Origin: Candidatus Poribacteria bacterium
GTDB taxonomy: Bacteria > Poribacteria > WGA-4E > WGA-3G
DNA: 64,000 nt
Assembly: GCA_009841255.1 (NCBI GenBank)
Contig: VXMD01000018.1
Location: 1 to 64,000 of the forward strand
Direction of reading: 5' to 3'
The position numbers and the translations under genes were made by a program. The number at the start of each line of letters is the position of its first letter. The stretch's first letter is position 1. The notes below the pieces were generated by a model that made no database searches, was not told the DNA's origin, and worked only from the letters and a program-made list of their open reading frames with translations. This document shows, piece after piece, positions 4,274-60,962 of the stretch.

Positions 4274-6664
4274 CTACCCGTTCCCTTGAAGGCGTTCAGC
4301 GAGGTAACTGTTGCGTTGCATGACTTGGTTGTTACGGATACAGATGCCAAGTGCCTGTTTGGTGCCGACTATTATGACACACTCCTTGGCACGGGTGATG
4401 CCGGTGTAGAGCAAATTCCGCTGTAACATGAGATAGTGTTGCGTGTGTAAAGGGATAACAACGGCGGGATACTCACTCCCCTGCGCTTTGTGGACAGTCG
4501 TGGCATACGCTAAGACGAGTTCTCCGAGGTCTGCGGTATCGTAAGTGACCTGCTTATCAGGGAATTGGATGTACACCTTTTTGTCGAGAGGCTCAATGGC
4601 GAGGACTCTGCCGATATCGCCGTTGAACACGTCGTAGTCGTAGTTGTTGCGGACTTGCATCACTTTATCCCCGACGCGGAAACCGCCTGCGGTTCGCGAT
4701 ACGGGCGAGGTCACCTCGCCCCTACGGGGTCCCTGTCTGTAATTCTGAACGCCGAATCTCGATTTTTCTAAGGGATGGGATACTGGGGAAACCACATATT
4801 CAGGATTCAACACCTCTTGGAGGCGTTTGTTGAAACTTTCAGTGCCAAGTATTCCACGCCGCATCGGGCATAGGAGTTGGATATCGTCTATCGGATGGTA
4901 ATCGTAGTGTTGCGGTAGCCGATCAGCAATGAGAGTGCATATCAATCCAACAATTGCTTCGGGATCCTCCTCCTCCATGAAGAAGAAGTTTCGATCCGTG
5001 TCGCCAGTGAGTTCTGGAAAATCGCCCTTGTTAATGCGATGGGCATTGGTGACGATCATACTCTCCTGTGCCTGGCGGAATATTTCGGTGAGTTGGATGA
5101 CGGGTATCTTATGGGAATCAATGAGTTCTCTGAGGACATTGCCCGCACCGACGGAGGGAAGTTGATCGGTGTCTCCGATGAGGATGACAGTCGTTGTGGG
5201 ACGGATTGCCTGCATCAAGCGGTTCATCAGGACGAGGTCTACCATAGAGGTTTCATCAACAATGACGACATCTGTGTTTAAAGGGTTCTGCCGATTTCGT
5301 TTAAATCCGTTGTTTTGCGGAGAGAATTCAAGGAGCCGATGGATGGTTTTGGCTTCGCGATCGGTTGTCTCACTGAGCCGTTTCGCTGCGCGTCCGGTGG
5401 GTGCTGTCAGGGTGATGCGTCTGCCTTCTGCTTCAAACAGACGAATCATGCCGACAACAGTCGTGGTTTTGCCGGTGCCGGGTCCGCCTGTAAGGATCAT
5501 GGCGGGTGTGGTCATAGCAGTATAAATCGCCTCACGCTGTTGTGTGGCGAAACGGATACGCATATCCGATTCCAACCGGATAAGCGCCTCGGTATAAGCT
5601 TCCTCGGCTTTTAACTGTCCGTGATTGAGGTGCTGTCCACGCCGAGATAGGAGTCTCAAAAACTGGTTTGCGACGCCGAGTTCGGCGTAGTAAAAAGGGG
5701 CAAGGTAGATAGCGGAATGGTTATCGGTTATCGGTTGTCGGTTGTCAGTGGAAAGCGGTTCTTGGTGTGTATCAGAAACCTCTGCCTGATTGCTAACCCC
5801 GTATATATCTTGTTCTTCACCCACATTTATCTGTTCGTCGGCAATCACTACATCTGTAAAACTGGGGTTAATAATTTCCTCTTTTTCGACGAGGGTGGAG
5901 ATCCCTTGCGTAATGGCGTCCGGCTCCTGCTCGAGCATGGTTTGGCACGCTTCAATCAGTTCGGCTCGGCGTTGGAAGACGTGCCCTTCATCTGCTTTCT
6001 GGCTGAGAACGTACTTAATTCCCGCTTGGACGCGTTGCGGGGCATCCTTATCCATGCCAAGTTTCTGTGCGATGGTGTCTGCGGTTACAAAGCCGATACC
6101 GTAAATATCGTCGGCGAGGCGATACGGATCTTCTGTGATGATCGGAATTGCATCGCTTTCATACGTCTTGTAAATCTTTGCGGCGTGTGCGGTGCTGACA
6201 TCGTGCGATTGTAGGAAGAGCATGACGTTTTTTATTTCGCGTTGTGCTTCCCACGCTTCTTTGATGATTTGTACGCGCTTCCGCCCGATACCGGGGACGC
6301 GTGCCAATTTTTCAGGCTCGTTTTCAATGACATCCATGGTATCCATACCGAACTTACGGACGATGAGCGTCGCCATTTTGGGTCCGATGCCTTTGATGAG
6401 ACCGGAGCCGAGATATTTTCTTAATCCGACGACGTTTGCGGGGAGGATGGTTTCATATTTCTCGATTTGGAACTGTCTGCCGTATCTGGGGTTATCTACC
6501 CATTGTCCCTGTAGGAGCAGGCTCTCTCCTGGGTTGATAGATGCCAGACTGCCGACAACAGTGATGAGTTCGGCATGGTCGCGCGCGGAGAGTCTTCCGA
6601 CTGTATAGCCGGTGTCAGGGCTTTCATAGACGATGCGTTCGAGTATCCCCTGTAATGTTTCCAT
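4274..6664 (-). CDS. recD2: RecD-like ATP-dependent DNA helicase (RecD2 type)
   Basis: 796 aa, longer than the 720-750 aa usual for RecD2. This superfamily 1B 5'-3' DNA helicase acts in DNA repair without RecBC. Visible: N-terminal OB-like part, helix-hairpin-helix segments (GSGLIKGIGPKMA, LARVPGIGRKR, about 95-150), Walker A GGPGTGKTT near residue 391, Walker B VVIVDETSMVD, and the C-terminal helicase motif TTVHKAQGSEY. Two stretches look foreign: residues about 303-316 (TDNRQPITDN) are translated from the degenerate CGGTTGTCAGT/CGGTTATC repeat, and residues about 644-657 (GPRRGEVTSPVSR) from a GGGCGAGGTCACCTCGCCC palindrome. Both keep the frame and lie between conserved motifs. No AAGG ribosome site is seen, but the start has the AAATTAAAAAATG context of the E1 repeat end. 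Confidence 0.95.
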   Translation of the reverse strand: METLQGILERIVYESPDTGYTVGRLSARDHAELITVVGSLASINPGESLLLQGQWVDNPRYGRQFQIEKYETILPANVVGLRKYLGSGLIKGIGPKMATLIVRKFGMDTMDVIENEPEKLARVPGIGRKRVQIIKEAWEAQREIKNVMLFLQSHDVSTAHAAKIYKTYESDAIPIITEDPYRLADDIYGIGFVTADTIAQKLGMDKDAPQRVQAGIKYVLSQKADEGHVFQRRAELIEACQTMLEQEPDAITQGISTLVEKEEIINPSFTDVVIADEQINVGEEQDIYGVSNQAEVSDTHQEPLSTDNRQPITDNHSAIYLAPFYYAELGVANQFLRLLSRRGQHLNHGQLKAEEAYTEALIRLESDMRIRFATQQREAIYTAMTTPAMILTGGPGTGKTTTVVGMIRLFEAEGRRITLTAPTGRAAKRLSETTDREAKTIHRLLEFSPQNNGFKRNRQNPLNTDVVIVDETSMVDLVLMNRLMQAIRPTTTVILIGDTDQLPSVGAGNVLRELIDSHKIPVIQLTEIFRQAQESMIVTNAHRINKGDFPELTGDTDRNFFFMEEEDPEAIVGLICTLIADRLPQHYDYHPIDDIQLLCPMRRGILGTESFNKRLQEVLNPEYVVSPVSHPLEKSRFGVQNYRQGPRRGEVTSPVSRTAGGFRVGDKVMQVRNNYDYDVFNGDIGRVLAIEPLDKKVYIQFPDKQVTYDTADLGELVLAYATTVHKAQGSEYPAVVIPLHTQHYLMLQRNLLYTGITRAKECVIIVGTKQALGICIRNNQVMQRNSYLAERLQGNG

Positions 6665-8193: not shown

Positions 8194-8285
8194 ATTTTTA
8201 AGTTTCCTTGCGGTTCGGCCAGACGAGTCTGAACCTTAGCGTGCCTTTGCGTACATCCGCCCTCCATTTCATTACGGGCTACAGG
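8194..8285 (-). repeat. E1 dispersed repeat, start-codon copy (thrC)
   Basis: Read on the minus strand, it runs from GTAGCCCGTAATGAAATGG through GGGCGGATGTACG to CCGAACCGCAAGGAAACTT and ends at AAAAAT before the thrC ATG. Both the GGAGGGCGGAT half and the ACCGAACCGCAAGG half match the other copies. Confidence 0.85.
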
Positions 8286-8532
8286 CCTCGCAAACGAGGT
8301 TTGTAACCCCGTTCTCTGATTACTGACTGCCGACCTTTATTCCTAATTTTCCTTGCGGTTCGGTCAGGCCGGTTAGAACTTTGACGAGCCTCACCGTAAT
8401 CCAGCCCGGCACGTTGTTTGGGCTTACGTTTTTGGTGCTATTAAGATCGTGTGCTCTCGACATTTCGTTCAGAACCAGAAAACGACGATTCCACCAATAA
8501 GAAGATCGTCGGGACACACCATCCTCAGAAGA
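8286..8532. repeat. second, degenerate E1 copy and short repeats
   Basis: No gene here. A GGTTTGTAACCCC palindrome is at about 8298-8312, a TGATTACTGACTGCCGAC stretch at 8320-8338, and a degenerate E1 copy (CCTTGCGGTTCGGTCAGG at 8350-8367, extending to about 8440). This second copy touches no start or stop codon. Confidence 0.6.
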
Positions 8533-25899: not shown

Positions 25900-26288
25900 T
25901 TTTTAATCTTTCCTTGCGGTTCGGTCAGGTAGGTTGGACAACTGAAGTGCCTTTCCGTAGATCTGCCTGCGTGTTTTTGCTTGGGTATTTCTGCGTATTG
26001 TTGCAGGCTACAATTTTGGTCTATAGTAAAATCACAATTCAGTTTACACTCTCTGACATGGCGAGGTTCGGAAACCTCGCCTACCAAGGGTGTTTCCGCT
26101 ATTGCTAGCGAGATGTCAAACCCACCAGCAAATTTTTAATGATTCCTTGCGGTTCGGTCAGGTAGGTTGAGCAATTGAAGTGCCGTTCCGTAGCCCTGCA
26201 GAAACACCCAAGCAAAAACCCTGTGCCTGCTTCGCAGTGAGAATACAGGCTACGAGTTTTGGTCTATAGTAAAATCCACAATTCAGTA
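25900..26288. repeat. two E1 copies in a row with a GGCGAGGTT palindrome between
   Basis: The first E1 (25900 to about 26010, minus-strand sense) abuts the PhyH start. The second (about 26142-26260) touches no gene start. Both continue into the same tail TTTTGGTCTATAGTAAAATC...CAATTCAG. Between them is the perfect hairpin GGCGAGGTT-CGGA-AACCTCGCC at 26060-26081. The second copy also carries the GAAACACCCAAGCAAAAACC unit. No gene in these 389 bp. Confidence 0.75.
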
Positions 26289-27326
26289 CTATTCCTGACA
26301 GACATGCACTTTAACTGCGCCGGAGGTCTTATCGGCAGACACTCGGAACGCTTCGACGATCTCTTCAAGCGGATAGGTGTGTGTCACCAATTTTGTCGCA
26401 TCCACCTTACCAGAGTCAATCAACTCAATTGCTGCTTCAAAGTCGGTCTCCATCCCACTATAACCGTAGCAGTTAGATCCTGTAACGAATGCTTCTGACC
26501 AGACGATCTTGGAAAGGTCCACTTCAAGCGGTTTGTAGTATCCTGCGACGAGGACAACGGCACCCTGTTTCCGAACGATATTCATAGCGGTGTCAAAGTT
26601 CTCTCCACCGCCTACGGTTTCAACCACTGCGTCAAAACCGATACCGTCTGTGACATCTTTGACATATTCTCGCACGTCGGTGTTGCTGACATTCACGACA
26701 TGATCTGCGCCAAGCGCTTTTGCGAGTTCCACTTGCTGCTCGTACTTGACGGTAATCAACGTCTCTTTCACACCGGCGGCGACCGCATCCGCTAAAGCGA
26801 ATTGTCCGATAGTCCCGCCGCCGATAATTGCGACCGTGTCTCTGGAATTGGCGCCTGTCCGGGCGATCGCACGATGAGAAACGGCGAGCGGTTCAACGAG
26901 GGCACCCTCCTCAAACGTCATGTCTTTCGGTAATTTAAACAACCCAGAATAGTGTGTCGAGGTGTATTCAGCGAATCCGCCGTGCATACTCGGAGAGATC
27001 CCGCCTCTGTTGAAGCAGAGATTATACTGTCCGGTCTCGCAATACTTACAGGTGCCGCAGTGTGAGAAACATTCCACGGCGACCTTGTCCCCGATGTCAA
27101 ACTTCGTTACGCCATCGCCGAGCGCCACGACGATGCCACATGTCTCATGCCCTGCGGCGTATTCGTGTGACTGTCCCCAATTTCCGAAATAACTATGTAG
27201 GTCGCTTCCACAGATACCAGTCTGCCTTGTGTCAACGAGTACAAAGCCGGGAGGCGGTTCGTCACGTTCGACCTCACGAATTTCAATTCCTTCAATACCT
27301 GTGTAGATAGCAGCTTTCATTTTCAT
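26289..27326 (-). CDS. zinc-dependent alcohol/polyol dehydrogenase (MDR)
   Basis: 345 aa. Catalytic zinc ligands: Cys in TGICGSDLH near 39 and the GHE motif near 63; structural zinc: CGTCKYCETGQYNLC near 94-108. The Rossmann loop VAIIGGGTIGQFAL is near 170. The pattern fits L-threonine/sorbitol dehydrogenase-like enzymes; substrate cannot be fixed. The ATG at 27326 is 12 nt after AAGG of a truncated E1-like end, the spacing seen in intact copies. Confidence 0.88.
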   Translation of the reverse strand: MKMKAAIYTGIEGIEIREVERDEPPPGFVLVDTRQTGICGSDLHSYFGNWGQSHEYAAGHETCGIVVALGDGVTKFDIGDKVAVECFSHCGTCKYCETGQYNLCFNRGGISPSMHGGFAEYTSTHYSGLFKLPKDMTFEEGALVEPLAVSHRAIARTGANSRDTVAIIGGGTIGQFALADAVAAGVKETLITVKYEQQVELAKALGADHVVNVSNTDVREYVKDVTDGIGFDAVVETVGGGENFDTAMNIVRKQGAVVLVAGYYKPLEVDLSKIVWSEAFVTGSNCYGYSGMETDFEAAIELIDSGKVDATKLVTHTYPLEEIVEAFRVSADKTSGAVKVHVCQE

Positions 27327-27440
27327 TTTTTAATCATTCCTTGCGGAGAAACGACGAGGCTGATGCTTTTCGGCTTTTCGCTCAAGGATTGAAGAAACAC
27401 CCAAGCAAAAACCCCGCCACTTCGTTACGGGCTACAGGTT
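27327..27440 (-). repeat. truncated or rearranged E1 copy
   Basis: The start-codon end (CCGCAAGGAATGATTAAAAA on the minus strand) and the far end (GTAGCCCGTAACGAAGTGGCG) are present, but the middle differs and carries GAAACACCCAAGCAAAAACC. Confidence 0.6.
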
Positions 27441-27566
27441 TTTACGATACCAAAAACCCGCGCTCCCCTCTATCTCGCGTAGGCAGTGGATACAGGGATG
27501 CGCAATCGAGATGCCCATTAATTAAAATGCTATCGGGGCCGAGGTGTCGGAACCTCTGACTACCCA

Positions 27567-29629: not shown

Positions 29630-32422
29630 ATGTTAATTTCAGATAATAAACGGTATGTCTGGTTCGTTGTCGCTATTTTATGCGGCATCTCAGCAGTGAT
29701 ACCGATGACTGCCAGTGCCGATACACTCAAGGTCGTCGTTCAAGACCAGAATGGAAACGCTATATCAGCAGCGAACGTACGCATTGGAAACCAAGAGCAA
29801 ACCACTGACGCATCCGGAGTTGCTACGTTTCGCGATGTGACAGGTGCGCAGCCGCTGACTGTAACAGCAATCGGATTTTCGAGCAAACGTATGAATACCA
29901 GTGCGGGACAAACTGAAGTGATCGTCAGGCTTGCTCCCATCCAAACGATTGAATCCGTTGTGGTCGTCGGGACCCGGAGTATCGGTAGGCGAGCGTTACA
30001 AGCCCCCGTTCCGATAGAAGTTGTTAACAGGGAACAACTCAGCCTTACGGGTCAATCTGAAACGGGTCGGGTCCTTCAGATGTTAGTCCCCTCCTTCAAC
30101 TTCTCAAGTTCAACCATCAGTGACGGCACAGATGCCCTACGTCCGGCAACACTGCGTGGCTTGGGACCTGACCAGACGCTTGTGCTTGTCAACGGTAAGC
30201 GTCGTCATAAAAGCGCGTTGCTGCATGTTAACACGTCGGTAGGGCGTGGGACGGCTGGAACGGATTTCAACGCGATTCCGTCCGCGGCGATAGAGCGGAT
30301 TGAAGTCCTCCGGGACGGCGCGGCGGCACAATACGGTTCCGACGCTATCGCTGGTGTGATTAACATCGTGCTAAAAGATAACGTTGACACAGGTGATGCC
30401 GATGTTTATTGGGGACAAACATACGAAGGCGATGGCGGCACATGGAACGGGAACGCCAATTACGGTATGAAAGTCGGTGACTCCGGTTTCCTCAATCTCA
30501 CGGCTGAATGGCGCGATAGAAACCGGACCAATCGTGCAGGTCTCACAGGTGAACGGCAGTATGACTGGATAGATGTTGACCCAGGCAGGCCCCCGGATAA
30601 GATGCTTGAAATCGAGAACGATGATGGGACTGTGACTGAGAAACCTGTCTGGCTCGATCGGCGTGAATATACCTTTGAGCGACAGAACTTCCGTATTGGG
30701 GATGCCGATTCTTCACAAAAAATTGGATTTTACAACTTCGGACTCCCACTCGCTGCGGGCTTGGAACTCTATTCCTTTGGCGGACACTCCTCACGTCAAA
30801 ACAACAGTGCGGGTTTTTATCGTAGAGCGAACCAAGCCGCGCGGACTGTGACCGAAATTTATCCCGACGGATTCCTGCCGGAAATCAATACCGATATTGG
30901 TGACACTTCTCTCGCTTTAGGTATGGCATGGACCCATGAGACGACCGATCTGAATGTGGACGCCAGTATCAATCACGGCTTGAATACTTTCAACTTTTTC
31001 ATTTCCAACTCTCTGAACGCCTCTTACGGTCCGAGTAGCCCGACCTCCGCGGATGCGGGTGGCTTTGAACTCTCTCAGACGGCGTTTAACTTAGATGTCA
31101 CCTATCCGCTGGACTATCAATCCTCACTGGTGAACCTTGCGGGTGGTGTTGAATTCCGCAGGGAAGGTTACGGCATACACGCCGGTGAACCGGTTTCCTG
31201 GATTAACGCGGGCCTCGGCGCAGACGGTGCCGCTGGCGGTATTCAGGTCTTTCCGGGCTTCCGTCCCGACAATGAAGTGGATGAGAGCCGGACGAATATC
31301 GCGGGCTATGCGGACTTTGAATCCTACTTAAGCGGGCAACCGGGAACAGGCTTGCTCGTCGGGGCAGCAGTCCGGGGTGAGCAGTATAGTGATTTCGGTG
31401 CCACTGTCACAGGAAAAGCGACGGCTCGCTACGATTTGACGAAACAGGTTGGGGTTCGCGCGGCGGGTAGCACAGGGTTCCGTGCGCCTTCACTTCAGCA
31501 ACTCTATTTCAATAACATTAGCACACAATTCAAAGTCGATGCAGACGATATTGACGGCGATGGAAACACCACTGAATTGGTAGCCCTCGAAGTCGGTACG
31601 TTCCGCAATGATAGCGATACCGCACGTGCGCTCGGTATCCCTGAACTGAAAGAGGAGACCGCCTTCAACGTCTCCGGGGGATTCGTGCTGAAACCGGTTG
31701 AGAACCTGTGGCTCACTATAGACGGATTTCTCATCCAAATCGATGATCGTATCGTTCTGAGTGGTAGTTTTAGTGCGGATAAAGTCGCGGGTTTAGCGGC
31801 AGCAGGCGCGAGCAGTGCGCAAGTGTTCACAAATGTCGCACAGACGCGCACCCAAGGTGTCGACATCGCCGCAGGCTATCTTCACGCTTTCAACAATGAA
31901 ACCCTTCTCAACTTGAAGGGTGCTTTGACATGGGCGGATACTGAAGTCATTGGAAACGTGGATGCCCCACAAATCCTCATCGGACTTGAGGATACGCTTT
32001 TCCCTTCACAAGAACGTTCGATGATTGAGGAGTGGCAACCGAACACCCGGATTAACCTCAGTGCAGATTACATCATCGGGGATCTTACGATCGGGGGTGC
32101 CTTGCGCTACTTCGGGAGTTACACGGTTCAAGAGGGAAGCGGTCCGGATCCTGCACGGCAGACTTATGGCGGAAAGTGGCTCACCGATGTTCAGAGCAAC
32201 TATCAACTCAATGAAGGGCTTTCATTGAGTATCGGTGTGAATAACCTGTTTAATCAGGTGCCTGATCTCAATGAAATTGGACAGTCGCGCGGCGGAAAAT
32301 TAGAGGATAGCACAGGACACGTCATTGTGGATTCGCCTGGGGTGTTTACGTATTCCAGGCGGTCGGCCCCGTTCGGTTTCAATGGTGGGCTTTACTATGC
32401 GAAACTCTGCTATCGTTTTTAA
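29630..32422 (+). CDS. TonB-dependent outer-membrane receptor
   Basis: 930 aa. Signal peptide (to about residue 31, ...MTASA), a carboxypeptidase-like regulatory domain (about 32-105, LKVVVQDQNGNAISAANV), plug domain with LRGLGPDQTLVLVNGKRR near 185 and IERIEVLRDGAAAQYGSDAIAGVINIV near 225, then the barrel, ending in the terminal aromatic F required for outer-membrane assembly. AAGGAG stands 8 nt before the ATG. Known role: energised uptake of siderophores, vitamins or oligomers; ligand unknown. The stop TAA lies inside the end of an E1 repeat. Confidence 0.92.
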   Translation: MLISDNKRYVWFVVAILCGISAVIPMTASADTLKVVVQDQNGNAISAANVRIGNQEQTTDASGVATFRDVTGAQPLTVTAIGFSSKRMNTSAGQTEVIVRLAPIQTIESVVVVGTRSIGRRALQAPVPIEVVNREQLSLTGQSETGRVLQMLVPSFNFSSSTISDGTDALRPATLRGLGPDQTLVLVNGKRRHKSALLHVNTSVGRGTAGTDFNAIPSAAIERIEVLRDGAAAQYGSDAIAGVINIVLKDNVDTGDADVYWGQTYEGDGGTWNGNANYGMKVGDSGFLNLTAEWRDRNRTNRAGLTGERQYDWIDVDPGRPPDKMLEIENDDGTVTEKPVWLDRREYTFERQNFRIGDADSSQKIGFYNFGLPLAAGLELYSFGGHSSRQNNSAGFYRRANQAARTVTEIYPDGFLPEINTDIGDTSLALGMAWTHETTDLNVDASINHGLNTFNFFISNSLNASYGPSSPTSADAGGFELSQTAFNLDVTYPLDYQSSLVNLAGGVEFRREGYGIHAGEPVSWINAGLGADGAAGGIQVFPGFRPDNEVDESRTNIAGYADFESYLSGQPGTGLLVGAAVRGEQYSDFGATVTGKATARYDLTKQVGVRAAGSTGFRAPSLQQLYFNNISTQFKVDADDIDGDGNTTELVALEVGTFRNDSDTARALGIPELKEETAFNVSGGFVLKPVENLWLTIDGFLIQIDDRIVLSGSFSADKVAGLAAAGASSAQVFTNVAQTRTQGVDIAAGYLHAFNNETLLNLKGALTWADTEVIGNVDAPQILIGLEDTLFPSQERSMIEEWQPNTRINLSADYIIGDLTIGGALRYFGSYTVQEGSGPDPARQTYGGKWLTDVQSNYQLNEGLSLSIGVNNLFNQVPDLNEIGQSRGGKLEDSTGHVIVDSPGVFTYSRRSAPFGFNGGLYYAKLCYRF

Positions 32423-32515
32423 TTTTACCTTGCGGTTCGGTCAAGTGGGTTGGGATCTATAACGTGCCTTCCCGTACATCCGTTCTCCATTTCATTACGA
32501 ACTACTTTTTAATTT
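32414..32515 (-). repeat. E1 copy on the stop codon of the TonB receptor
   Basis: TTTTTAATTTTACCTTGCGGTTCGG: the TonB receptor's last Phe codon and stop (TTT TAA) form the outermost bases of the repeat. The copy then runs through GTGCCTTCCCGTACATCCG to CATTACGAACTAC, opposite in sense to the gene. Confidence 0.8.
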
Positions 32516-34452: not shown

Positions 34453-34698
34453 TTATTCGCAAGGCGTTAAATGAAGTAATTTGTTTGTCGTCCGCTTTTC
34501 TCATACCCGCCTACGCCTGCTTCGCAGTGAGAATGCAGGCTACTATCTTTGGTTACAGGCGTCAAAGATGAAACCAAAAATCGTAGCTCGTAACGAAGTG
34601 GAGAGCGGATTTAAGGAAAACACATCACTGATTCAAATTCACGTCGTTTCTCCGCAAGGAAAGTTAAAATATTATTCGCAAGGCGTTAAATGAGGTAA
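34452..34698 (+). repeat. E1 copy flanked by 28-bp direct repeats
   Basis: ATTATTCGCAAGGCGTTAAATGA(A/G)GTAA stands at 34452-34479 and again at 34671-34698 (one mismatch). Between them is an E1 copy in plus sense (about 34582-34670, CGTAGCTCGTAACGAAGTGG to CTCCGCAAGGAAAGTTAAAAT) and a stretch GCCTGCTTCGCAGTGAGAAT that also occurs at 26225-26245. Confidence 0.8.
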
Positions 34699-34707
34699 AA
34701 TTAAAAA

Positions 34708-35442
34708 ATGACCCTCGACCTAACAACACTTCGCGACGATTTCTCAAGGGACGGTTTCGCTATCGCACGGAATCTGTTTGAACGCAGCGAAGTTCAACGT
34801 CTCAAATTAGAGTGTATCGACATTCTGGAAGCCGTTAAGGCGGAAACAGGTGCGGTCGCTGGACACGGTGTTTATGTCGGTTTAGCGGCGCGGAGTCCCG
34901 TCTTTCAAACTGCTGTGGGTGATGCACGGATCCTCGATATTTTAGAGGGCATCTTCGCGCCGGATATTGAGTTCCTCAGCGATAAGGTGGTCTTTAAGAG
35001 TGAGACGACGACCTTCGCCAGCCCTTGGCATCAAGATTGGTCCTATTGGCACGGTGCACACAAACTCTCAATCTGGGTCGCGCTTGACGATGCGACTGTG
35101 GAAAACGGGTGTCTCAAACTCTTCCCGGGTTCCCATAAATCTGCCATTGTCCATGACGGTGATGCCAGTGATGGTAACGGGTTTGGGAATCGACTCCAGG
35201 CGGGGGCAGTTGACGAAAGCCGTGCCGTTACGGCGGAGATTGAAGCAGGTGGGGCAGTCTTTTTCCACGACCTGACGCTTCACGCCAGTCATCCGAACAC
35301 ATCCGGCGAAGGACGTTGGGTTTGGATTCCGACGTATCGCGACGCAAACGCGGAGGACACTGATTATCCGTGGGCTGTTGCCGCGAAAGTCTTAAGGGGT
35401 GAGAAATTGAATGCACGTGAGGTCCCAGACCCACGTGTTTAA
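34708..35442 (+). CDS. phytanoyl-CoA dioxygenase family protein
   Basis: 244 aa. Iron ligands in SPWHQDWSYWHG near 110-112 and LTLHASHPN near 190; GRWVWIPTYR likely holds the 2-oxoglutarate arginine. GAGG stands about 12 nt before the ATG, supplied by the second of two 28-bp direct repeats. Followed after 20 bp by an isomerase, so cotranscribed. Substrate unknown. Confidence 0.88.
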   Translation: MTLDLTTLRDDFSRDGFAIARNLFERSEVQRLKLECIDILEAVKAETGAVAGHGVYVGLAARSPVFQTAVGDARILDILEGIFAPDIEFLSDKVVFKSETTTFASPWHQDWSYWHGAHKLSIWVALDDATVENGCLKLFPGSHKSAIVHDGDASDGNGFGNRLQAGAVDESRAVTAEIEAGGAVFFHDLTLHASHPNTSGEGRWVWIPTYRDANAEDTDYPWAVAAKVLRGEKLNAREVPDPRV

Positions 35443-41445: not shown

Positions 41446-41580
41446 CGATTACTGAGGAATGGTTGTCAGTTATCGGTTGTCGGTTGTCAGTTAAACACAC
41501 TTGTGGCAGTAACTGAAAATATACCCGCTACAAGAAATACTACCGAAAACTGTTAACCGATAACCGTTAACCCATAACTG

Positions 41581-42042: not shown

Positions 42043-42092
42043 TACGGAGGAAAGGGTCGTCGGTTATCAGTTAACAGTTATCGGTTACAAGA

Positions 42093-42277: not shown

Positions 42278-44617
42278 ATGCGAGACCTTTTGGTGCGGCT
42301 TGCAAACAAAAGTCAGCAATTTATGTCGGACGTACGCGTTGTCAAAGCCTCTACCTTCCGACCCTACATTGGACTCATCACTTTTTCTGCCACTTCCCTC
42401 GCACTCGCCATAGGGATAACCCTCAGCAGACTCCTTGTTTTTCAATATCACTCGAATTCCGGTGTTGTCGGCTGGCTCAGTGTGAATGCGTATCCGAAAC
42501 AACAGGAATACTTTTTCTATCTGTTAGCACTGCTGGGTATCCCAGCAACAATCTATCTCTACTGGCTTGCGTGGTGTGTCTATTCGCGTTGGTGTGCAGA
42601 GCGAACCGCCCAACCGATACAGCGTGTCCTGAAAGCAAACGCGTTCGCATCCATTCCGTTGTGGTTCTGTTGGCTACAGGTCTATGCTATCGGTCAGAGC
42701 ATATTAACGGGCTTACTCCTACCGATCACTCTATCCATTCTGCTTAAATTGGTATTGCTGTCCCAGCGGTACTTCCCTACGCTGTGGAATTCAGATGTTT
42801 TTGATAACACAGACGAACTCGCAAACTCCACCTACAGAAACACCCCAAACGCAGCCCGAAACGAAGTGGAGGGCGGATCTACGGAAAAAGACTTGAAATC
42901 TCCACCCGCGCTGAACGAACCGCAAGGTATAATTAAAAAGCGTGGTGGACTTGAATACATTCTCCTTCCGATTTTCATCTATCTTCTTACCTATTCCGGA
43001 GACATCCATGGCAAAATAGATTTATTCCACGAGGGGGAACGGCTCGCCCCTCTCAATGAAATGCTGCATGGCGCGGTGCCGTTCCGGGATATCTATATCC
43101 AGCATGGACTCTTCCAAAACGCTTATTTGGCATGGTTTGGAAGCCAACTCTTTGAACCGACCCTGTTTGGTTTGCGTTCAATGGAGGAGATATTGAACCC
43201 ACTCGGCTATGTTGCGCTCTACGTGCTCGGTTTGCAAATCTTCCGAAGTAGGTTCTTGATCGCCTTTATCTGCGTGATTATTGCCTCTGGAACGGAATTT
43301 TGGGTATCTGCGCGGCATAGCCTCGGCTTAATAAGTTTCGCCTTCGTAGCGAACTCTCTTACGCACATCCAAAGGACTCGCCCGAACAAGGTCCCCACAT
43401 TTGTATGGAAATTGCTCCTCGCTGGGCTTACCACGAGTTTGGCGTTCTGGTATAGTACTGAAATCGGGCTCTACACGCTGGGTGCTATCGGATTGTTTTT
43501 GGTTATATATGTGTTCCAAGGCGGCTTTCAAACAGAGGGTGAAAGCAGGCAAAGCCCACAAGAAAAAAATAGGAGAGAATACCTATTACCCTTAATCAGT
43601 TATAGTTGCGGGGTGCTGTTCGGTTTTCTCTCGGTAGGTCTCTATTTTCTATGGCACGGTGCCTTAGACGATGTCATTTGGAACACCTATATCCAGTGTC
43701 GCTATCAGCTCGCAACGTGGGGACTCGCCTTTCCATCTCTATCCGAAACACTTACACTGTTGTCAATGAACGGATGGCGTGTTTTCGTCTTAAGTGATGG
43801 TTTTCGATGGTATCTGCCAATTTGCATCTTTCTGACTGCAGCGGCGTACCTGACATATCGGTGCTTATGTGGAACTGTATCGGCACCGAACACGATGAAA
43901 TTTCTGCTCCTTTTGCTCGGTGGCATCGCATTCTTCCGAACTGCATTGGGACGTTCAGATGATGGACATCTGATTTACGGGGCGACCTTTTTATGGCTGC
44001 TCTGTCTATTTCCATTAGAAGGTGGCATTCTCAAAATGCTCCGTACGTGTCTATCATTTTTCAGGGGTAACGGACCTTGGCGGCAGGCATTGAAAGCAGC
44101 GTGGGTACTGATCCCGACAGTCATATTCTGCTGGTATGTTGCGGAAATCCACCAACCGTTAGAGGGTTTTGGTAAGAAATGGCAAAGGTTGCGTCAGAAT
44201 CCGTTCAAACAACGCGTTGTAACGCAGGAATTAGCGCGCGCAGGAAAGGTAAACATTCCGAACGATCAAGCTGAACAGGTTCAAAAGGTGGTCGCTTATA
44301 TTCAGGAAAACACAGCAGCGAATGAAAAGATTTTCGATTTTACGAGTCAGGGTGCTTACTATTTTTTCGCAAACCGACTGAGCGTTACCCGATTCCATCA
44401 GGCTTCATACGCATCGACACCGGAAATGCAGCAGGAGGTTATCTCGGCACTTGAACGGGACAAAACACGTTTAGTCATCTTTAAAACGGGAGGATGGTTT
44501 GATGCAGTTGACGATATCCCGGTCGAGGAACGGCATCCGCTGATTGCGGCATATTTGCAGGCGAACTATGAACTCGCGGTGGACATTAATGAAACGGAGA
44601 TTTTATTGCGGAAATAA
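42278..44617 (+). CDS. GT-C-like multi-pass membrane protein with an in-frame E1 insertion
   Basis: 779 aa with about 11 membrane segments and a soluble C-terminal part (about 640-779). The loop HGKIDLFHEGERLAPLNEMLHGAVPFRDIYIQHG near 245-280 is the acidic/HEG luminal loop typical of GT-C (ArnT/PMT-like) glycosyltransferases; ARHSLGLI follows. Lipid-linked sugar transfer outside the membrane is inferred. Residues 192-222 (AARNEVEGGSTEKD...EPQGIIKKR) are the translation of a full-length E1 repeat at 42851-42940 lying between two membrane segments; the frame stays open. The ATG at 42278 directly follows an AACTGAAGACTGAAAACC repeat. Confidence 0.8.
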   Translation: MRDLLVRLANKSQQFMSDVRVVKASTFRPYIGLITFSATSLALAIGITLSRLLVFQYHSNSGVVGWLSVNAYPKQQEYFFYLLALLGIPATIYLYWLAWCVYSRWCAERTAQPIQRVLKANAFASIPLWFCWLQVYAIGQSILTGLLLPITLSILLKLVLLSQRYFPTLWNSDVFDNTDELANSTYRNTPNAARNEVEGGSTEKDLKSPPALNEPQGIIKKRGGLEYILLPIFIYLLTYSGDIHGKIDLFHEGERLAPLNEMLHGAVPFRDIYIQHGLFQNAYLAWFGSQLFEPTLFGLRSMEEILNPLGYVALYVLGLQIFRSRFLIAFICVIIASGTEFWVSARHSLGLISFAFVANSLTHIQRTRPNKVPTFVWKLLLAGLTTSLAFWYSTEIGLYTLGAIGLFLVIYVFQGGFQTEGESRQSPQEKNRREYLLPLISYSCGVLFGFLSVGLYFLWHGALDDVIWNTYIQCRYQLATWGLAFPSLSETLTLLSMNGWRVFVLSDGFRWYLPICIFLTAAAYLTYRCLCGTVSAPNTMKFLLLLLGGIAFFRTALGRSDDGHLIYGATFLWLLCLFPLEGGILKMLRTCLSFFRGNGPWRQALKAAWVLIPTVIFCWYVAEIHQPLEGFGKKWQRLRQNPFKQRVVTQELARAGKVNIPNDQAEQVQKVVAYIQENTAANEKIFDFTSQGAYYFFANRLSVTRFHQASYASTPEMQQEVISALERDKTRLVIFKTGGWFDAVDDIPVEERHPLIAAYLQANYELAVDINETEILLRK
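42851..42940 (+). repeat. E1 repeat inside a coding sequence
   Basis: GCAGCCCGAAACGAAGTGG, GGGCGGATCTACGG, then CTGAACGAACCGCAAGGTAT and AATTAAAAAG: all blocks of the intergenic E1 consensus in order, in the same sense as the host gene and in the frame that reads EVEGGSTE...EPQG. Confidence 0.9.
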
Positions 44618-44722: not shown

Positions 44723-45787
44723 CTACTTCTGCTGTTCAACGAAGATTCGGTAGATGTCCTCAAAAAGCCTGACATCTGTGAGTGTATCTTCAGCGGAAGA
44801 GCGGAAGGGTTCATCGCTGCGGAGGTTCGCCAGAAAGTATTCCGCTTCTCTGTGATATGCCCAGGTCCAACTCGGTCTCGGAATCGGACGGGCGATTTCC
44901 TGTTCTTCCCCAGCACGATAGATCTCGACCTCTGCAGGCGTGTTTTTCAAGAGTAACGGCGGTGCCCATGTGTGAACCCAGCCGTTCTCAAAATAGATTT
45001 GGCTATGCTCATCCCAGCGGTAGTGGGAGACATGTCCAGTTTCTAACGTCACACGGATGCCGTCCATATCGAAGATAACAACACCAGAATATCCGTTCGG
45101 ATCCAAATCAACGACTTTGACGCTTACTTTGTCGCCAGCATCAAGGAACCAGCGCATTAAATTGATATTGTGCGTGTACTGTTGTAAATATCCTAAATAG
45201 GAACCACGCCACTGTTCGGGTATCCATTCTGGGGTTTTGACGGGTGCGCTCGGTTTCGTCTCTGTTGTTCCATCCATGTGGGCATCGAGATTACACACCC
45301 AATCCCCACCGAATCCGTGGTTCCTTGCATACGTTAAGCGTCCGAGTTCGTTCGTTTCTCGGAACTGCGCGACCCGTGTTTTGACGATCTCGTTTCCGGC
45401 ATCGTAGCGTTTCATGTAGCCGACCATCAACTTTTTGCCCGACTTTTGTGACGCTGCCACAATCGCCTCGGCTTGTTCGACGGAAACAGCCATCGGTTTC
45501 TCCATGAAGACGTGCTTACCTGCCAAAAGGAGATCTTTCGCGATTTCACCTTGCAATGCGAAATCAGCAGACACGGCGACTGCTTCGATATCGGCGTTTT
45601 GTGCGAGTTCATCGTGGTCCCGATAGAGATGGGGAATCCCGAAACGGGTTTGGACTTTTTTACCGAGTTCGGTACGCACCTCTGCGAGTCCGATAAGTTC
45701 ACAGTCCGGGATGCTTGTAAAATTCGGGATGTGGACCTTCTGTGCCATGAACCCACAACCAATATAACCCAGTCGAATTTTTTCCAT
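44723..45787 (-). CDS. Gfo/Idh/MocA oxidoreductase
   Basis: 354 aa. N-terminal Rossmann fold RLGYIGCGFMAQKVHIP, EKP motif in VFMEKPMAVS near 95, KRYDAGNEIVK near 125 and the sheet domain. The ATG follows an E1 end (CCGCAAGGAAAATTAAAGGT). No same-strand neighbour within 200 bp upstream. Substrate unknown. Confidence 0.9.
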   Translation of the reverse strand: MEKIRLGYIGCGFMAQKVHIPNFTSIPDCELIGLAEVRTELGKKVQTRFGIPHLYRDHDELAQNADIEAVAVSADFALQGEIAKDLLLAGKHVFMEKPMAVSVEQAEAIVAASQKSGKKLMVGYMKRYDAGNEIVKTRVAQFRETNELGRLTYARNHGFGGDWVCNLDAHMDGTTETKPSAPVKTPEWIPEQWRGSYLGYLQQYTHNINLMRWFLDAGDKVSVKVVDLDPNGYSGVVIFDMDGIRVTLETGHVSHYRWDEHSQIYFENGWVHTWAPPLLLKNTPAEVEIYRAGEEQEIARPIPRPSWTWAYHREAEYFLANLRSDEPFRSSAEDTLTDVRLFEDIYRIFVEQQK

Positions 45788-46050
45788 ACCTTTAATTTTC
45801 CTTGCGGTTCGGTTAGCAACATTGAATGGCTAACGTTTTTCTCCGTATATCCGCCTGCGTGTTTTTGCAATGTAATACAAGGAATGGATTTAGTCTAACC
45901 CCAGACTAAATCCGGTATTTCTGCGTATTGTTGCAGGCTACTGTTTCAGTCTAACATGATTCCTAATCAGAAACTTACACATCATGGAATAGAATGCTGG
46001 CCAATCGGTTCGGATTTCTAATGTTCCTTGCGGTTCAGTCACGCTGATTT
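45788..46050 (-). repeat. E1 copy at a start codon plus an E1 fragment
   Basis: The main copy (45788 to about 45955) abuts the oxidoreductase start; its middle holds an inverted GGATTTAGTCTAACCCCAGACTAAATCC hairpin at about 45886-45913, an insertion not seen in other copies. A shorter fragment (TTCCTTGCGGTTCAGTCACG) is at 46023-46042, downstream of the HEAT gene. Confidence 0.75.
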
Positions 46051-46544: not shown

Positions 46545-46931
46545 TCACACATTTTCTTCGACCATTGGATTTCCTTCGAGTTCGGGCAGGTCGCGCCAGA
46601 TTTCGGGCCCCTCGGGCTTGAAATTAATAGTCGCAATGAACTGCATCCCGTGATAGAAGTTGATTTTGAATTTGCCACCGCCGAAATTTTTCCTGAGATA
46701 TTCCAATGGGGCTTCAATCAACAGACCCATTTCGTCTGCATGATAGAAGGCGAGCGGTTTAAACCGCACTGTATTGCCTACCGGTTCTTGGACGAGTAAC
46801 TGTGCCGACGTCGCGGGAAAAAGCACTTGAAAGGCTTGCCAAAGGTCGGAAACAGTCGGCTCCAACTTCCCGATGCGTTTTTTAAAGTCGTTCTCAAGGT
46901 ATTCTGAGAAGGTATTGAAAACCCATTCCAT
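46545..46931 (-). CDS. hypothetical protein
   Basis: 128 aa, no family recognised, no signal or membrane segment. It has balanced composition and secondary-structure-like alternation (MEWVFNTFSEYLENDFKKRIG, LAFYHADEMGLLIEAP, KFKINFYHGMQFIATINF). The ATG follows a TGACAACTGATAACTGAAAA repeat without a clear ribosome site. Probably cotranscribed with the HEAT gene. Confidence 0.6.
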   Translation of the reverse strand: MEWVFNTFSEYLENDFKKRIGKLEPTVSDLWQAFQVLFPATSAQLLVQEPVGNTVRFKPLAFYHADEMGLLIEAPLEYLRKNFGGGKFKINFYHGMQFIATINFKPEGPEIWRDLPELEGNPMVEENV

Positions 46932-47174
46932 AATAGTTGCCAGTTTTCAGTTATCAGTTGTCAGAGGAATAGCTGTCGGCTTTCTTACTTCTTATAAGTA
47001 ACATGTCACTTCCGGGGCATCATCCAAGTGATAGTGATTCGTTACAAACCAATCTCTTAACCGATAACTCTCGCTGCGAGGCAAATCAACAACTGATAAC
47101 CATTAGAGCGGTGCCTTTAAGAAGTCCTTCCAATCAAAATTGGGCAGAGGAAACTCCTCTGTGGCTTCGCATTG
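46932..47174. repeat. spacer with AACTGATAACTGA-type repeats
   Basis: CAGTTTTCAGTTATCAGTTGTCAG at about 46938-46963 and, on the opposite strand, AACCGATAACTC...CAACTGATAACC at about 47060-47100. No gene. Confidence 0.6.
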
Positions 47175-49098: not shown

Positions 49099-50403
49099 TC
49101 AACGTTTCGGTCTGAAGGATGGGATGCCGGTTTTATCAAACCGTTTCTTGACGGCTTGCATCAGTTCAGGGGTAACTTCGCGATGCCCGTGTTCGCGTGC
49201 GTATTTTTCAACGCTTTTGACGACCATTCCACGCGCAAACGATGGCACACGCTTCAACCTTTTTTCTGCTGCTGGCGTCCACTGTAAATCGTAATCGGTT
49301 TCCGTTGCGAAAGCAATCTTTTTTTCTATTTGAACAGGGGGTGTACCATATTGTCCGGGCTGATACTCGCATGAGGCATCCTCAGCGAGATAGTTGCCAG
49401 TCGTGGCATAGGCACGCGCTCTGCAACCGCCGCACACCTCTCTGAATTCACACGCGCCGCATTTCCCTTCAAGCAAATCTCGATTCCGTAAGTTTTGGAA
49501 GGTCTCCGATTCGTTCCAAAGTTTAACAAAACTTTCCTCTTTGAGGTTACCGACGCTAACAGGTAGATAGGGACAGGGGGTCAGTTCGCCTTCAGGTGTG
49601 ATACGGCAGTAGTAAATTCCACATGGACAGGTGCCGCTGGGATAGCCCTGAAGAAACGCAGAATCGGATTGTTGTTCATAGATGACGCGTTTGTAATGCG
49701 GTGCGCACTTCGCGGCGATGAGCATTTTTCCAGCATACGCCGCTTGTAGCTCGAAAAACGTTTCAAACGCTTTTTCGTATTGCGCAGGTGTAATGTCCAT
49801 TACCGTCTTCCCTCTCCCGGTTCGGACGAGGAAGTAGAGATTTAGCACCTTCGCACCGAGTTGATAGGCGTACTCCACGATTTCTGGAATTTCATCGTAA
49901 TTCCACTGGGTCACGGAGGTCTGAACGAGGAAATCGAGTTGTGCGCGTTTGAGTGCCTCTACGCCGTTCATCGTCGCCTTCCACGCGCCCTCCATACCTC
50001 GGAACCGATCGTGGTTTGTCGGCTGGATAGAGTCAAGACTAATGCCTGCCCCCGTAACACCGTGCTGCTGCATTTTCTCGACGATTTCGTCGGTGAGCAA
50101 GACACCGTTTGTGCCCATTACAACAAGAAATCCGGTATCGGAGGCATACTTCGATATCTTCAAGATATCTGGACGTAATAGGGGTTCACCACCGGTAAGA
50201 ATAAGGAGGATGTGCGGGTTGATTTCGGCTATCTCATCAATGACACGAAAACATTGTGATTGGCTCAATTCCGTATCCTTGTGATAACCTTGTGGGAACT
50301 CGTTTGTGTCTACAAATCCGGCGGGAAGGTAGCAATGCGTGCACTTTAGATTACACAATCGGGTGATATTCCATGAAACTGCTTGGACTTTCGTATCTGT
50401 CAT
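49099..50403 (-). CDS. radical SAM/SPASM protein with C-terminal PCP_red-like domain
   Basis: 434 aa. Cys17, Cys21, Cys24 (CNLKCTHC) bind the radical SAM cluster; ILTGGEPLLRPD is the GGE motif. The SPASM part has CPYLPVSVGN, CGACEFREVCGGCRARAY and a late Cys (DASCEYQPG). The pattern is that of the heme-related or peptide-modifying branch (NirJ/AhbD/PqqE-like). The last 60 residues (WTPAAEKRLKRVPSFARGMVVKSVEKYAREHG) form a PCP_red domain. The ATG at 50403 is 13 nt after AAGG of an E1 repeat. First gene of the operon with two PhyH oxygenases and a second PCP_red protein. Substrate could be a tetrapyrrole or a peptide; undecided. Confidence 0.9.
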   Translation of the reverse strand: MTDTKVQAVSWNITRLCNLKCTHCYLPAGFVDTNEFPQGYHKDTELSQSQCFRVIDEIAEINPHILLILTGGEPLLRPDILKISKYASDTGFLVVMGTNGVLLTDEIVEKMQQHGVTGAGISLDSIQPTNHDRFRGMEGAWKATMNGVEALKRAQLDFLVQTSVTQWNYDEIPEIVEYAYQLGAKVLNLYFLVRTGRGKTVMDITPAQYEKAFETFFELQAAYAGKMLIAAKCAPHYKRVIYEQQSDSAFLQGYPSGTCPCGIYYCRITPEGELTPCPYLPVSVGNLKEESFVKLWNESETFQNLRNRDLLEGKCGACEFREVCGGCRARAYATTGNYLAEDASCEYQPGQYGTPPVQIEKKIAFATETDYDLQWTPAAEKRLKRVPSFARGMVVKSVEKYAREHGHREVTPELMQAVKKRFDKTGIPSFRPKR

Positions 50404-50510
50404 GTTTTTAATTATACCTTGCGGTTCGATCAGATGCATTGAATAACCAACGATTATCTCCGTAGATCCGCCCTCCGCTACGCTTACGGGCTACAGTTTC
50501 GTTAAACCTG
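50404..50510 (-). repeat. E1 copy at the radical SAM start
   Basis: Minus sense: GTAGCCCGTAAGCGTAGCGG, GGGCGGATCTACGG, then ATCGAACCGCAAGGTATAAT and TAAAAAC before the ATG. Its EPQG frame runs into the gene in frame, so a short N-terminal extension (MHLIEPQGIIKN) is formally possible. Confidence 0.85.
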
Positions 50511-51176: not shown

Positions 51177-52046
51177 TCACGGTTTCAAATTGACGAAAAT
51201 CAGTGCAATTACTGCGAGTAGCGCACCGATGAGAGGGACGCGCCCCAACCGTTCATGGAGGAATACCATACCAACGAACATCGTGAACAACACACCGCCT
51301 GAACTCGACATTGGAAAAGCAATCAACGCACTCACCTTGTCCAGCGCGATGAGAAGTGCCCAACTTCCGGCGACATTACATATGCCTATGAGCACACCGT
51401 AGAAGACCTCCCACCAATTCGGCCACGTTTTCTGATAGAGGCATATCCCCAAGTAAATAACCGTGGCGACACCGAACAGCAGACTCATATAGAGCGATTT
51501 TTCATCAATAGGACACATTTCGTTGAAGGCTTTCATGGTGAGCCGTGAAATCCCGGTAATCAGTAGAATCGTGAGCGCAACAGCGAATCCTAAACCTTGC
51601 GGCGTTTCCGGTCTGTCAGGTGTAAATCTATAGGTCGGTTCTTTTTCGCGCTGGCTGAGAAGCGGAATTGCCACAAACGTTAAGAGAAGTCCTACGGTTT
51701 GCCAGAGATTGGGAATCTCTTTCCAGAACAGCATCGATACTACAATCGGGACCACGATCGATAGCCTAACGAGCGCCGCCGTGACGACAATTCCGCTGAG
51801 TCGAATCCCAAGCGTAAATAACTCAAACCCGGCAGCGTATGTCACACCGTTTGATATACCTAATACGAAGGTTAACTTTGAGAACTCGAAATCCTGTTCC
51901 TGTGACAGGACCCAGATGCTGATAAAGGAAGCAACGAGGTAGTTGACAAAGCCGATCGGATTTAAGCGTTGTTGATTATCTTTGGCATGCTTGAGAAAGA
52001 GTCCGAAACCGGAAAGTAAGACGATGTTGAGTGCGAGGAAAAGCAT
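51177..52046 (-). CDS. EamA/DMT-type transporter
   Basis: 289 aa, ten membrane helices in two similar halves (SFISIWVLS..., then TFVAIPLLS; SAL-IAFPMSSSGGVLFTMFVGMVFLHERLG near the end, the EamA closing motif). I start at ATG 52046, 10 nt after AAGG of an E1 repeat; the frame of the repeat is open and in phase upstream (EGGSTGRH...LTEPQGKIK), so the repeat-coded extension cannot be excluded. Exporter of metabolites, substrate unknown. Confidence 0.88.
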   Translation of the reverse strand: MLFLALNIVLLSGFGLFLKHAKDNQQRLNPIGFVNYLVASFISIWVLSQEQDFEFSKLTFVLGISNGVTYAAGFELFTLGIRLSGIVVTAALVRLSIVVPIVVSMLFWKEIPNLWQTVGLLLTFVAIPLLSQREKEPTYRFTPDRPETPQGLGFAVALTILLITGISRLTMKAFNEMCPIDEKSLYMSLLFGVATVIYLGICLYQKTWPNWWEVFYGVLIGICNVAGSWALLIALDKVSALIAFPMSSSGGVLFTMFVGMVFLHERLGRVPLIGALLAVIALIFVNLKP

Positions 52047-52200
52047 TTTAATTTTACCTTGCGGTTCGGTCAAGTGAATTTGGAAAATGGCGTGTCTTCC
52101 CGTAGAGCCGCCCTCCACTACGTTACGGGCTTACTACTTGGTTTTATTTCTAATGCTGTAATCGATTTCAATTTTTACCTTGCGGGACCGATTGTTTGCA
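52047..52200 (-). repeat. E1 copy plus E1 end-fragment
   Basis: The full copy (52047 to about 52135, AACGTAGTGGAGGGCGGCTC on the minus strand) abuts the transporter start. A second end alone (TTTTTACCTTGCGGGACCG) stands at 52172-52190 near the end of the Gfo gene. Confidence 0.8.
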
Positions 52201-56336: not shown

Positions 56337-57170
56337 ATGAAAACTATCTACACTACGCTATGTCTTCTCTGGCTGATAGTTCCAGTATGTGCGGAAACAC
56401 CCACCGACAAAAGACCCTTTGAATCGGCGCGCCCCCTGTATGTCGGCGCGCGGGCATTAGGGATGGGCAACGCCTTCACTGCTGTCGCTGACGATGCCAG
56501 TGCAGGTTTTTGGAACCCAGCTGGACTCATTCAGTGGCAGGGTGTGAAACTTTTTGCAGTCAATAAGTTCCATGACCGAAGTGATTACCGATTTGACCCG
56601 AAAGGTATCGGCTATAGCTACCGCGGCTATAGCCTATTTTGGGGGAACAAAATCGCCCTCGGCGTCGACAGTGGCGTTCCCGATTTCAATTACTACGGCA
56701 TCGCGCGTCAATTCGGTCCATACTTTGCCGCGGGATTGAGTCTCAAGTTTAAACGACGCCATCCGTCCGAGATCTATCAATTCTTCGGCTACGAGACGGC
56801 GTACGATCTCGGATTGCTTTTTAAACCACGTCCAAATCTCAAGTTCGGATGCCTCGCGCAGAACCTCAAGGGGTATGGTATTCAATGGCTGACACTCGGT
56901 CTCTCTTATCGTTATGCGAAGCATTGGTTGCGAAGCGCGCCCTGCGAATTTTCAATCGACGTCGCGCTTCCTACTGAAGGTAGAACACCAGAATTATACA
57001 TCGGTGCGGAGTGGCACCCTTTCCGGATACTTCCTATTCGTCTCGGCATCTCAAATGGTTCACTCACAGGTGGAATTGGGATTGCGTGGAAAGGGATTCA
57101 CATCAATTACGCCCGAATTTTCGAGAAGCCCTCCGCTTCGGATTTCGTTGCGTTAGCTATAAGTTTTTAA
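56337..57170 (+). CDS. outer-membrane beta-barrel protein (PorV/UPF0164-like)
   Basis: 277 aa. Signal peptide (MKTIYTTLCLLWLIVPVCA) chosen as the start although a longer frame exists. ARPLYVGARALGMGNAFTAVADDASAGFWNPAGL near 30-60 is the PorV/FadL-like opening; the rest alternates as barrel strands and ends in Phe, the assembly signal. Divergent from rsmI with 59 bp between. The TAA stop is in the TTTTTAATTTTACC end of an E1 repeat. Could support export of the YPNPFNPET-type protein at 0.2 kb, as PorV does for type IX secretion (inference). Confidence 0.8.
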   Translation: MKTIYTTLCLLWLIVPVCAETPTDKRPFESARPLYVGARALGMGNAFTAVADDASAGFWNPAGLIQWQGVKLFAVNKFHDRSDYRFDPKGIGYSYRGYSLFWGNKIALGVDSGVPDFNYYGIARQFGPYFAAGLSLKFKRRHPSEIYQFFGYETAYDLGLLFKPRPNLKFGCLAQNLKGYGIQWLTLGLSYRYAKHWLRSAPCEFSIDVALPTEGRTPELYIGAEWHPFRILPIRLGISNGSLTGGIGIAWKGIHINYARIFEKPSASDFVALAISF

Positions 57171-57318
57171 TTTTACCTTGCGGAGTGATTGCCGGGGTTT
57201 GGTGTTTAACGTGCCTCCCTCTTGAGTCGCCTGCGCCGATGTTGCAGGCTACCTTTTTTGATTTAACGAAAACCTCTTTATTGGCAACTGACTGCTAATT
57301 ACCTTGCGGTGTCGATAA
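57165..57318 (-). repeat. E1 copy on a stop codon plus an end-fragment
   Basis: TTTTTAATTTTACCTTGCGGAGTG at 57165-57188 includes the barrel gene's stop. It continues to GCCTGCGCCGATGTTGCAGGCTACC at about 57230-57253, the variant tail also seen at 62180-62205. A second end (AATTACCTTGCGGTGTCG) is at 57297-57314 next to the protease stop. Confidence 0.75.
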
Positions 57319-60029: not shown

Positions 60030-60857
60030 TTAGGATTTATTCATATTTAACTCTGCCATGGAGCGGAGATTCAATAGCGGTGTCATGACACCACCGGCGG
60101 CGGGGAGGACGACTCCGGTATCGTAGAGTTTCATTGCGGAAATGGTGGCGTGCGCGACATCTTCAGGTGCACCGGCGCGGACCATAAAGATATAGCCTTT
60201 CTCCGCCGCTTCCTCATAATCGGGGATACGGACGCGTGAGAGGTCGGTATCAATCACACCCGCGGCGATACCGTTCACCTTAATGCCGTGTCCCGCCAAG
60301 CGTCCAGCAAAGGCGCGCATGCTCATCTCTAACCCAGCTTTTGAAATACAGTAGGCTGTACGGTTATCGGATGCCATGATATCGGAAATTGAGAGCGTAT
60401 AGATAATACACCCGCGAATCTCGTTTGCTACCATATAATTCGCGACGCGTTGGGTCAAAAAGTGGGTTGCCTTGAGATTGGTGTTGACGATCAGGTCGAA
60501 CTGTTCGGGTGTTTCCTCAAGAATGTCAGCGATACGGGTGATGCCGGCGTTGTTGATGAGGATATCTACCTTCCCGAAGGCATTGTGTGCGGTATCGAGT
60601 AATTTTTCGTGGGCATCGAGGTCGCTGATGTCGGCTTGGATAATCACCGCTTTTCTGCCGAGTGCTTCCACTTCCTGTTGGACGGATTCGGCGGCATCTC
60701 GATTCTGGTTGTAGTTGATAAGTACGTCGGCACCTTGGCGCGCTAATTCAATGGCGATTGCGCGTCCGATACCGCGGCTGGAACCTGTAACGATTGCGGA
60801 TTTGTCGGTGAATGAAACGTCTGTTGCGAAGAACCCGAGATTTTTATCCGTTGGCAT
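60030..60857 (-). CDS. short-chain dehydrogenase/reductase
   Basis: 275 aa. Cofactor loop TGSSRGIGRAIA near 22-33, NNAGITR near 105, catalytic Tyr/Lys in YCISKAG near 172-178. NADPH preference suggested by the SSRG loop. The ATG is 12 nt after AAGG of an E1 repeat. It follows the peptide permease genes on the same strand but with a 100-bp repeat between. Substrate unknown. Confidence 0.9.
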   Translation of the reverse strand: MPTDKNLGFFATDVSFTDKSAIVTGSSRGIGRAIAIELARQGADVLINYNQNRDAAESVQQEVEALGRKAVIIQADISDLDAHEKLLDTAHNAFGKVDILINNAGITRIADILEETPEQFDLIVNTNLKATHFLTQRVANYMVANEIRGCIIYTLSISDIMASDNRTAYCISKAGLEMSMRAFAGRLAGHGIKVNGIAAGVIDTDLSRVRIPDYEEAAEKGYIFMVRAGAPEDVAHATISAMKLYDTGVVLPAAGGVMTPLLNLRSMAELNMNKS

Positions 60858-60950
60858 CTTTTAATTTTTCCTTGCGGTTCAGTCAGGTTAGTTGGATGAA
60901 TGAAGTGCCTTTGCGTATATCCGCCCTCCATTACATTACGGGCTACGGGT
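60858..60950 (-). repeat. E1 copy at the SDR start
   Basis: Minus sense: GTAGCCCGTAATGTAATGGA, GGGCGGATATACGC, CTGACTGAACCGCAAGGAAA, ATTAAAAG then the SDR ATG. One of the best conserved copies. Confidence 0.9.
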
Positions 60951-60962
60951 TTTGAGGCTATC

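Follow-up and report, generated by a model that had tools for sequence, protein, structure and literature searches.

A 779-residue open reading frame in a 64,000-nucleotide stretch of a Candidatus Poribacteria genome (hereafter the window) runs through a full-length copy of a short repeat, E1, raising the question of whether the repeat is translated as part of a membrane protein and, if so, whether E1 is an element selected for residence inside genes. An earlier note, made from the sequence of the window, had proposed both.

The E1 repeat and its copy in a glycosyltransferase-like gene

The 3' block of E1, CCGCAAGGNANNNTTAAA, occurs 679 times genome-wide when at most one mismatch is allowed, versus 4 times for the reversed control, which excludes chance; a profile HMM made from E1 copies, whose model spans to position 94, finds 217 copies or fragments in the 1.62 Mb of Poribacteria genome searched. 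By sequence comparison, E1 is a genuine dispersed repeat of about 94 nt that has been amplified in one clade. It is laid out as a GTAG-tagged 5' hairpin (T, A and G of the tag each conserved at 90% or more), a variable middle and a 3' tail, CCGCAAGG-N5-TTAAAA. The four-pair stem of this hairpin, hairpin 1, has compensatory changes at 3/4 pairs among 66 copies and a folding energy with a mean z of about -1.3, and the element as a whole folds with a mean z of about -0.1, i.e. close to zero; beyond hairpin 1, the rest of E1 has no comparable energy or covariation support. A conserved second hairpin was rejected, since neither energy nor clear covariation backs one, and Rfam gave no match at gathering score in the 64-kb window. 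Other short repeats (GGGGTTTTTGCTTGGGTGTTTCTTCAG; AAATTATGCCTTAAATGGCATAATTTGTCTTTGCTTTACATTT) are found nested within the loop of hairpin 1 in some copies (Table 1), and the window also carries tandem GGTTATCGGTTGTCAGT-type repeats between genes (5714-5749, 41456-41491, 42050-42085 and 46930-46965).

The copy within the gene matches the HMM at 42848-42939 (62 bits, model positions 3-94) and encodes residues about 191-222, NAARNEVEGGSTEKDLKSPPALNEPQGIIKK; both the frame and the block within it are as the earlier note described them. Many Poribacteria have a homologue that aligns with residues 1-190 and 222-779 without a break in the reading frame, and one from Lentisphaerae aligns with residues 40-771. 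After E1 the frame continues KKRGGLEYILLP with no in-frame start codon directly downstream; an internal start at this place was rejected, the GTG and TTG found there being out of frame. Because the N-terminal part is conserved in the phylum and no in-frame start follows E1 directly, we predict that the block must be translated, within one real gene.

Although no Pfam family matches the 779-residue host protein, an AlphaFold model built from 34 sequences (mean pLDDT 83) retrieves AglB (E 1e-5) and ArnT (E 8e-4) in Foldseek, with low TM-scores of 0.32-0.49; by this structural match to solved GT-C enzymes, the modelled fold is GT-C. The pLDDT falls below 50 at residues 165-214, between helices at 142-165 and 216-238, which places most of E1 in a predicted disordered loop and agrees with the earlier proposal that the block lies between membrane segments.

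Table 1. Coordinates of E1 copies and related features (window positions unless a locus is named)
Feature	Position	Strand	Remark
GT-C-fold membrane glycosyltransferase-like gene, 779 aa, host of in-frame E1	42278..44617	+	
E1, full length, read in frame (PQG frame)	42846..42939	+	HMM, pLDDT
Hairpin 1 of in-gene E1 (GCCC...GGGC)	42854..42875	+	only stem covarying across E1 copies
3' tail CCGCAAGGTATAATTAAAAA of in-gene E1, read P-Q-G-I-I-K-K	42920..42939	+	elsewhere likely ribosome-binding site
E1 ending directly before ATG at 60857	60858..60951	-	HMM
E1 directly before ATG at 52046	52045..52138	-	HMM
E1 directly before ATG at 50403	50405..50499	-	HMM
E1 directly before ATG at 45787, nested sequence in place of its 5' part	45788..45868	-	
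E1 directly before ATG at 25899, hairpin 1 holding a nested insertion	25900..26016	-	
E1 with nested insertion, directly before ATG at 27326	27327..27441	-	
E1 directly before ATG at 8193	8194..8287	-	
E1, no start codon adjoining	32416..32510	-	
E1 upstream of gene at 34708	34578..34671	+	
E1 subtype with hairpin GCCTGC/GCAGGC, away from starts	57164..57257	-	
E1 with nested repeats in hairpin 1 loop	25900-26016; 27327-27441; L046 17147; L047 2701; L063 7133		
RAYT-like Y1 gene and its REP	L126 1357-1803		GTAGGTTGGGTTGAACG
RAYT-like Y1 gene and its REP	L123 1423-1902		GTAGGAGGGAACTCCGATTCCCGAC
RAYT-like Y1 gene and its REP	L124 1423-1695		GTAGGAGCGAGCTGYGCTCGCG
E1-like second leader	L135, L138, L140		before ATGGAAAAAATTCG or ATGGAAAACATTCG; tandem copies in 2/3 loci

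The GT-C slot in relatives and insertions in other genes

Among 48 aligned sequences, only six species of one nine-species clade have E1-derived residues at the GT-C slot, as subtype A in G000, G074, G053 and G061 and as subtype B in G066 and G083; unrelated linkers fill the slot in G077, G050 and G060, as well as in the remainder of the genus and in the outgroups. The earlier note had expected homologues from outside the lineage to lack a block of about 30 residues, and the other Poribacteria and the Lentisphaerae homologues indeed lack it. Judged by comparison with these relatives, E1 is a late addition to the GT-C gene. The nine genomes form one clade with 98/99 support and hold 98-462 exact E1 tails each, against 0-88 elsewhere in the genus and 0-3 outside it. 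The two subtypes are distributed discordantly with the gene tree (the orthologous slot lies in L072-L076), and the tree is compatible with one hit or several at the slot; an insertion in the T2SSE gene that is common to G000 and G060 likewise conflicts with the tree. This discordance at both sites suggests exchange between species.

A count of E1 copies inside genes and of the frame used, proposed in the earlier note as a check, gave seven genes in the 1.62 Mb, all seven in sense orientation and five of them in one frame. The T2SSE ATPase carries an in-frame E1 of 31 residues in G000 and G060 only, while G074, G053 and G066 show a clean empty site, the two flanks there being joined directly; this sole clean empty site is compatible with GAAAA on both sides, an ambiguous sign of a target-site duplication. 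RNase J has an in-frame E1 between its RMMBL and RNase_J_C domains, NAD kinase has three in tandem between its two domains (the first reduced to its 3' part), and a PMT_2 protein has one in a frame other than PQG; together with the GT-C and T2SSE genes these make up the secure cases. Less certain are the N-terminus of an epimerase, where the start codon could lie within E1, and L183, a GT2 plus carotenoid-synthesis protein that is possibly a fusion. The sole antisense genic match falls in a doubtful 72-residue ORF. In 305 kb from relatives, 11 of 21 full-length copies adjoin an ATG and no antisense genic copy was seen.

Start codons and reading frames

Most E1 copies stand elsewhere. With gene starts taken from a simple home-made gene caller, 128 of the 217 matches lie at gene starts and 60 end exactly at the called start codon; an ATG follows within one base in 64 of 134 full-length copies, and an E1 stands at the start of 86 of the 912 genes that begin with ATG. 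AAGG is found 12 nt upstream of the E1-adjacent ATG in 67/83 cases; in 77/83 this ATG is not in the PQG frame, and in 76/83 its own register meets a stop inside E1. Start-site leader is the main context of E1, one that is absent from the earlier proposal, and coding insertion is a minor one; on this pattern E1 likely acts mainly as a dispersed ribosome-binding-site element, with the tail as its putative functional part. At the same place, orthologous genes in relatives have another E1 copy, an older tail or just a Shine-Dalgarno sequence (the copy at 27327..27441, for example, is missing from G074, G083 and G075), indicating that E1 turns over quickly and that its tail can replace the native site. 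Insertion between a native Shine-Dalgarno sequence and its ATG was rejected, since a Shine-Dalgarno-like 4-mer is present in the left flank of 20% of ATG-adjacent copies versus 21% of other copies; the value at normal starts is 55%. Three related species have a further leader family that resembles E1 (GCAGCTTGTAGCCGAAGGCGAAAAGCGG...GTTAGGGCAAAATTAAAAA) and, like it, runs up to the ATG.

In a stronger version, E1 would be a mobile cassette carrying a ribosome-binding site that goes in exactly at start codons, at a fixed 12-nt spacing, and that has taken over translation initiation in about a tenth of the genes; insertions in coding sequence would be off-target events of the same machinery. We consider this tentative idea rather doubtful.

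Among 78 non-genic full-length copies, the sense frames are open in 37% (s0, the PQG frame), 15% (s1) and 6% (s2), and the antisense frames in 46%, 8% and 28%. The PQG frame is thus closed in 63%, which does not sustain the earlier idea that E1 is under selection for a harmless open frame. The note had listed four intergenic copies in which this frame stays open; this holds before 60857 and 45787, but the copies before 52046 and 50403 have stops near their 5' end. The sense peptides are hydrophilic (GRAVY -0.7 to -1.3) and the antisense ones are not (+0.1 to +0.6). A random open E1 frame would be sense with a probability of 0.42, and the observed 7/7 genes have P = 0.002; for the secure cases, a small number, 5/5 are sense (P = 0.013) and 4/5 share one frame. 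The sense bias and the hydrophilic sense peptides fit a survival filter acting on the encoded peptide, and such a filter explains the genic data; a preference for one orientation at insertion could also leave only sense copies in genes. Intergenic copies away from starts have no orientation bias (36 same, 41 opposite or none).

Competing explanations and known repeat systems

We place at roughly 85% the probability that E1 is a clade-amplified repeat that serves as a start-site leader and occasionally inserts in frame into genes, the translated copy in the GT-C loop included. Under this reading, in which we infer the mobility mechanism of E1, the ribosome-binding role of its tail and the neutrality of its peptide, E1 would spread and usually settle between genes, and its tail would act as a ribosome-binding site when it stands directly before an ATG. 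Occasionally it would land within a gene, to survive there only if the frame is kept, the site is a linker or loop and the peptide is hydrophilic and tolerable; the survivors would in practice be those on the sense strand, mostly in the ...TEPQGKIKK frame. The copy at 42846-42939 is one such survivor: in a single clade of Candidatus Poribacteria it was added to a GT-C-type glycosyltransferase, in the predicted disordered loop between two helices, and we predict that it is translated.

That E1 is instead a protein-invading element in the sense of the Rickettsia palindromic elements (RPE), itself selected to keep a harmless open frame for life in genes, we judge improbable. In-frame sense insertions do recur, with four of five secure cases in one frame, and the PQG frame is open in 48% versus 23% of shuffles, but conserved motifs could have left the consensus open as a side effect, the frame is closed in most non-genic full-length copies (63%), and few of the 217 matches are genic; moreover, constraint is greatest on the tail and on the 12 nt that separate it from the ATG, in a register that stops inside E1 close. 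A very improbable history is one in which two genes, the downstream one with E1 as its leader, were later joined into one: leading a start site is the normal role of E1, and the two parts of L183 are separate open frames in several relatives, yet the flanks of E1 in the GT-C, T2SSE, RNase J and NAD kinase genes form one protein in relatives. For the GT-C gene, which is one protein in outgroups too and has no start codon right after E1, fusion of two genes at E1 is refuted by the outgroup architecture. An assembly or frame error, by which the GT-C gene would really be broken or split at E1, is hardly credible even for a draft metagenome-assembled genome, since six separately assembled species have in-frame E1-derived sequence at the slot, with length differences in multiples of three and intact flanks.

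The preferred reading, a start-site leader that occasionally inserts into genes, would extend protein-invading repeats to a sponge-associated phylum and to core enzymes (RNase J, NAD kinase and a type II/IV secretion ATPase), with one repeat family in two very different contexts, positioning the ribosome as a leader and filling protein linkers as translated sequence. If the tail does serve as a ribosome-binding site, a burst of repeats would have rewired translation initiation across a genome.

ERIC, RUP, BOX and Correia-type elements are small transcribed intergenic repeats, and E1 is like them in being small and intergenic; to our knowledge none of them is described as stopping exactly at the start codon and providing the ribosome-binding site, and the open-licence literature on repeats and start sites yielded no such repeat. 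As for mobilisation, no E1-linked transposase and no RAYT gene flanked by E1 was found in the genome, and mobilisation by RAYT was rejected because E1 is not enriched at 36 Y1 loci (0.018 per kb versus 0.134 per kb for the genome). Three RAYT-like Y1 transposase genes that we inspected carry other REPs, not E1, each with its own GTAG-type REP (Table 1).

In GTAG-tagged REPs, a hairpin that shows compensatory changes comes after the GTAG; they are present in many copies, occasionally within genes (PMC3733652). E1 is like these RAYT-associated repeats in its GTAG tag adjoining a covarying palindromic stem, its many copies and its presence in some genes; it differs in its length (94 nt versus 20-40 bp), in its ribosome-binding-site-like tail and in its position, upstream and abutting the ATG, whereas REPs are predominantly downstream of genes. 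RPEs are short dispersed repeats that lie in frame in unrelated protein genes and add tens of residues (PMC3733652); intragenic REP and RPE copies add about 20-30 residues and are possibly harmless in linkers or loops (PMC3733652). Compared by description, E1 is unlike RPEs in that it belongs to a different phylum, stands mainly before start codons with its ribosome-binding-site-like tail and is not palindromic as a whole, hairpin 1 alone being supported. The parallel with RPEs that the earlier note drew does apply to the genic copies: like RPEs, E1 inserts in frame into protein-coding genes, and the inserted block is missing from their orthologues.
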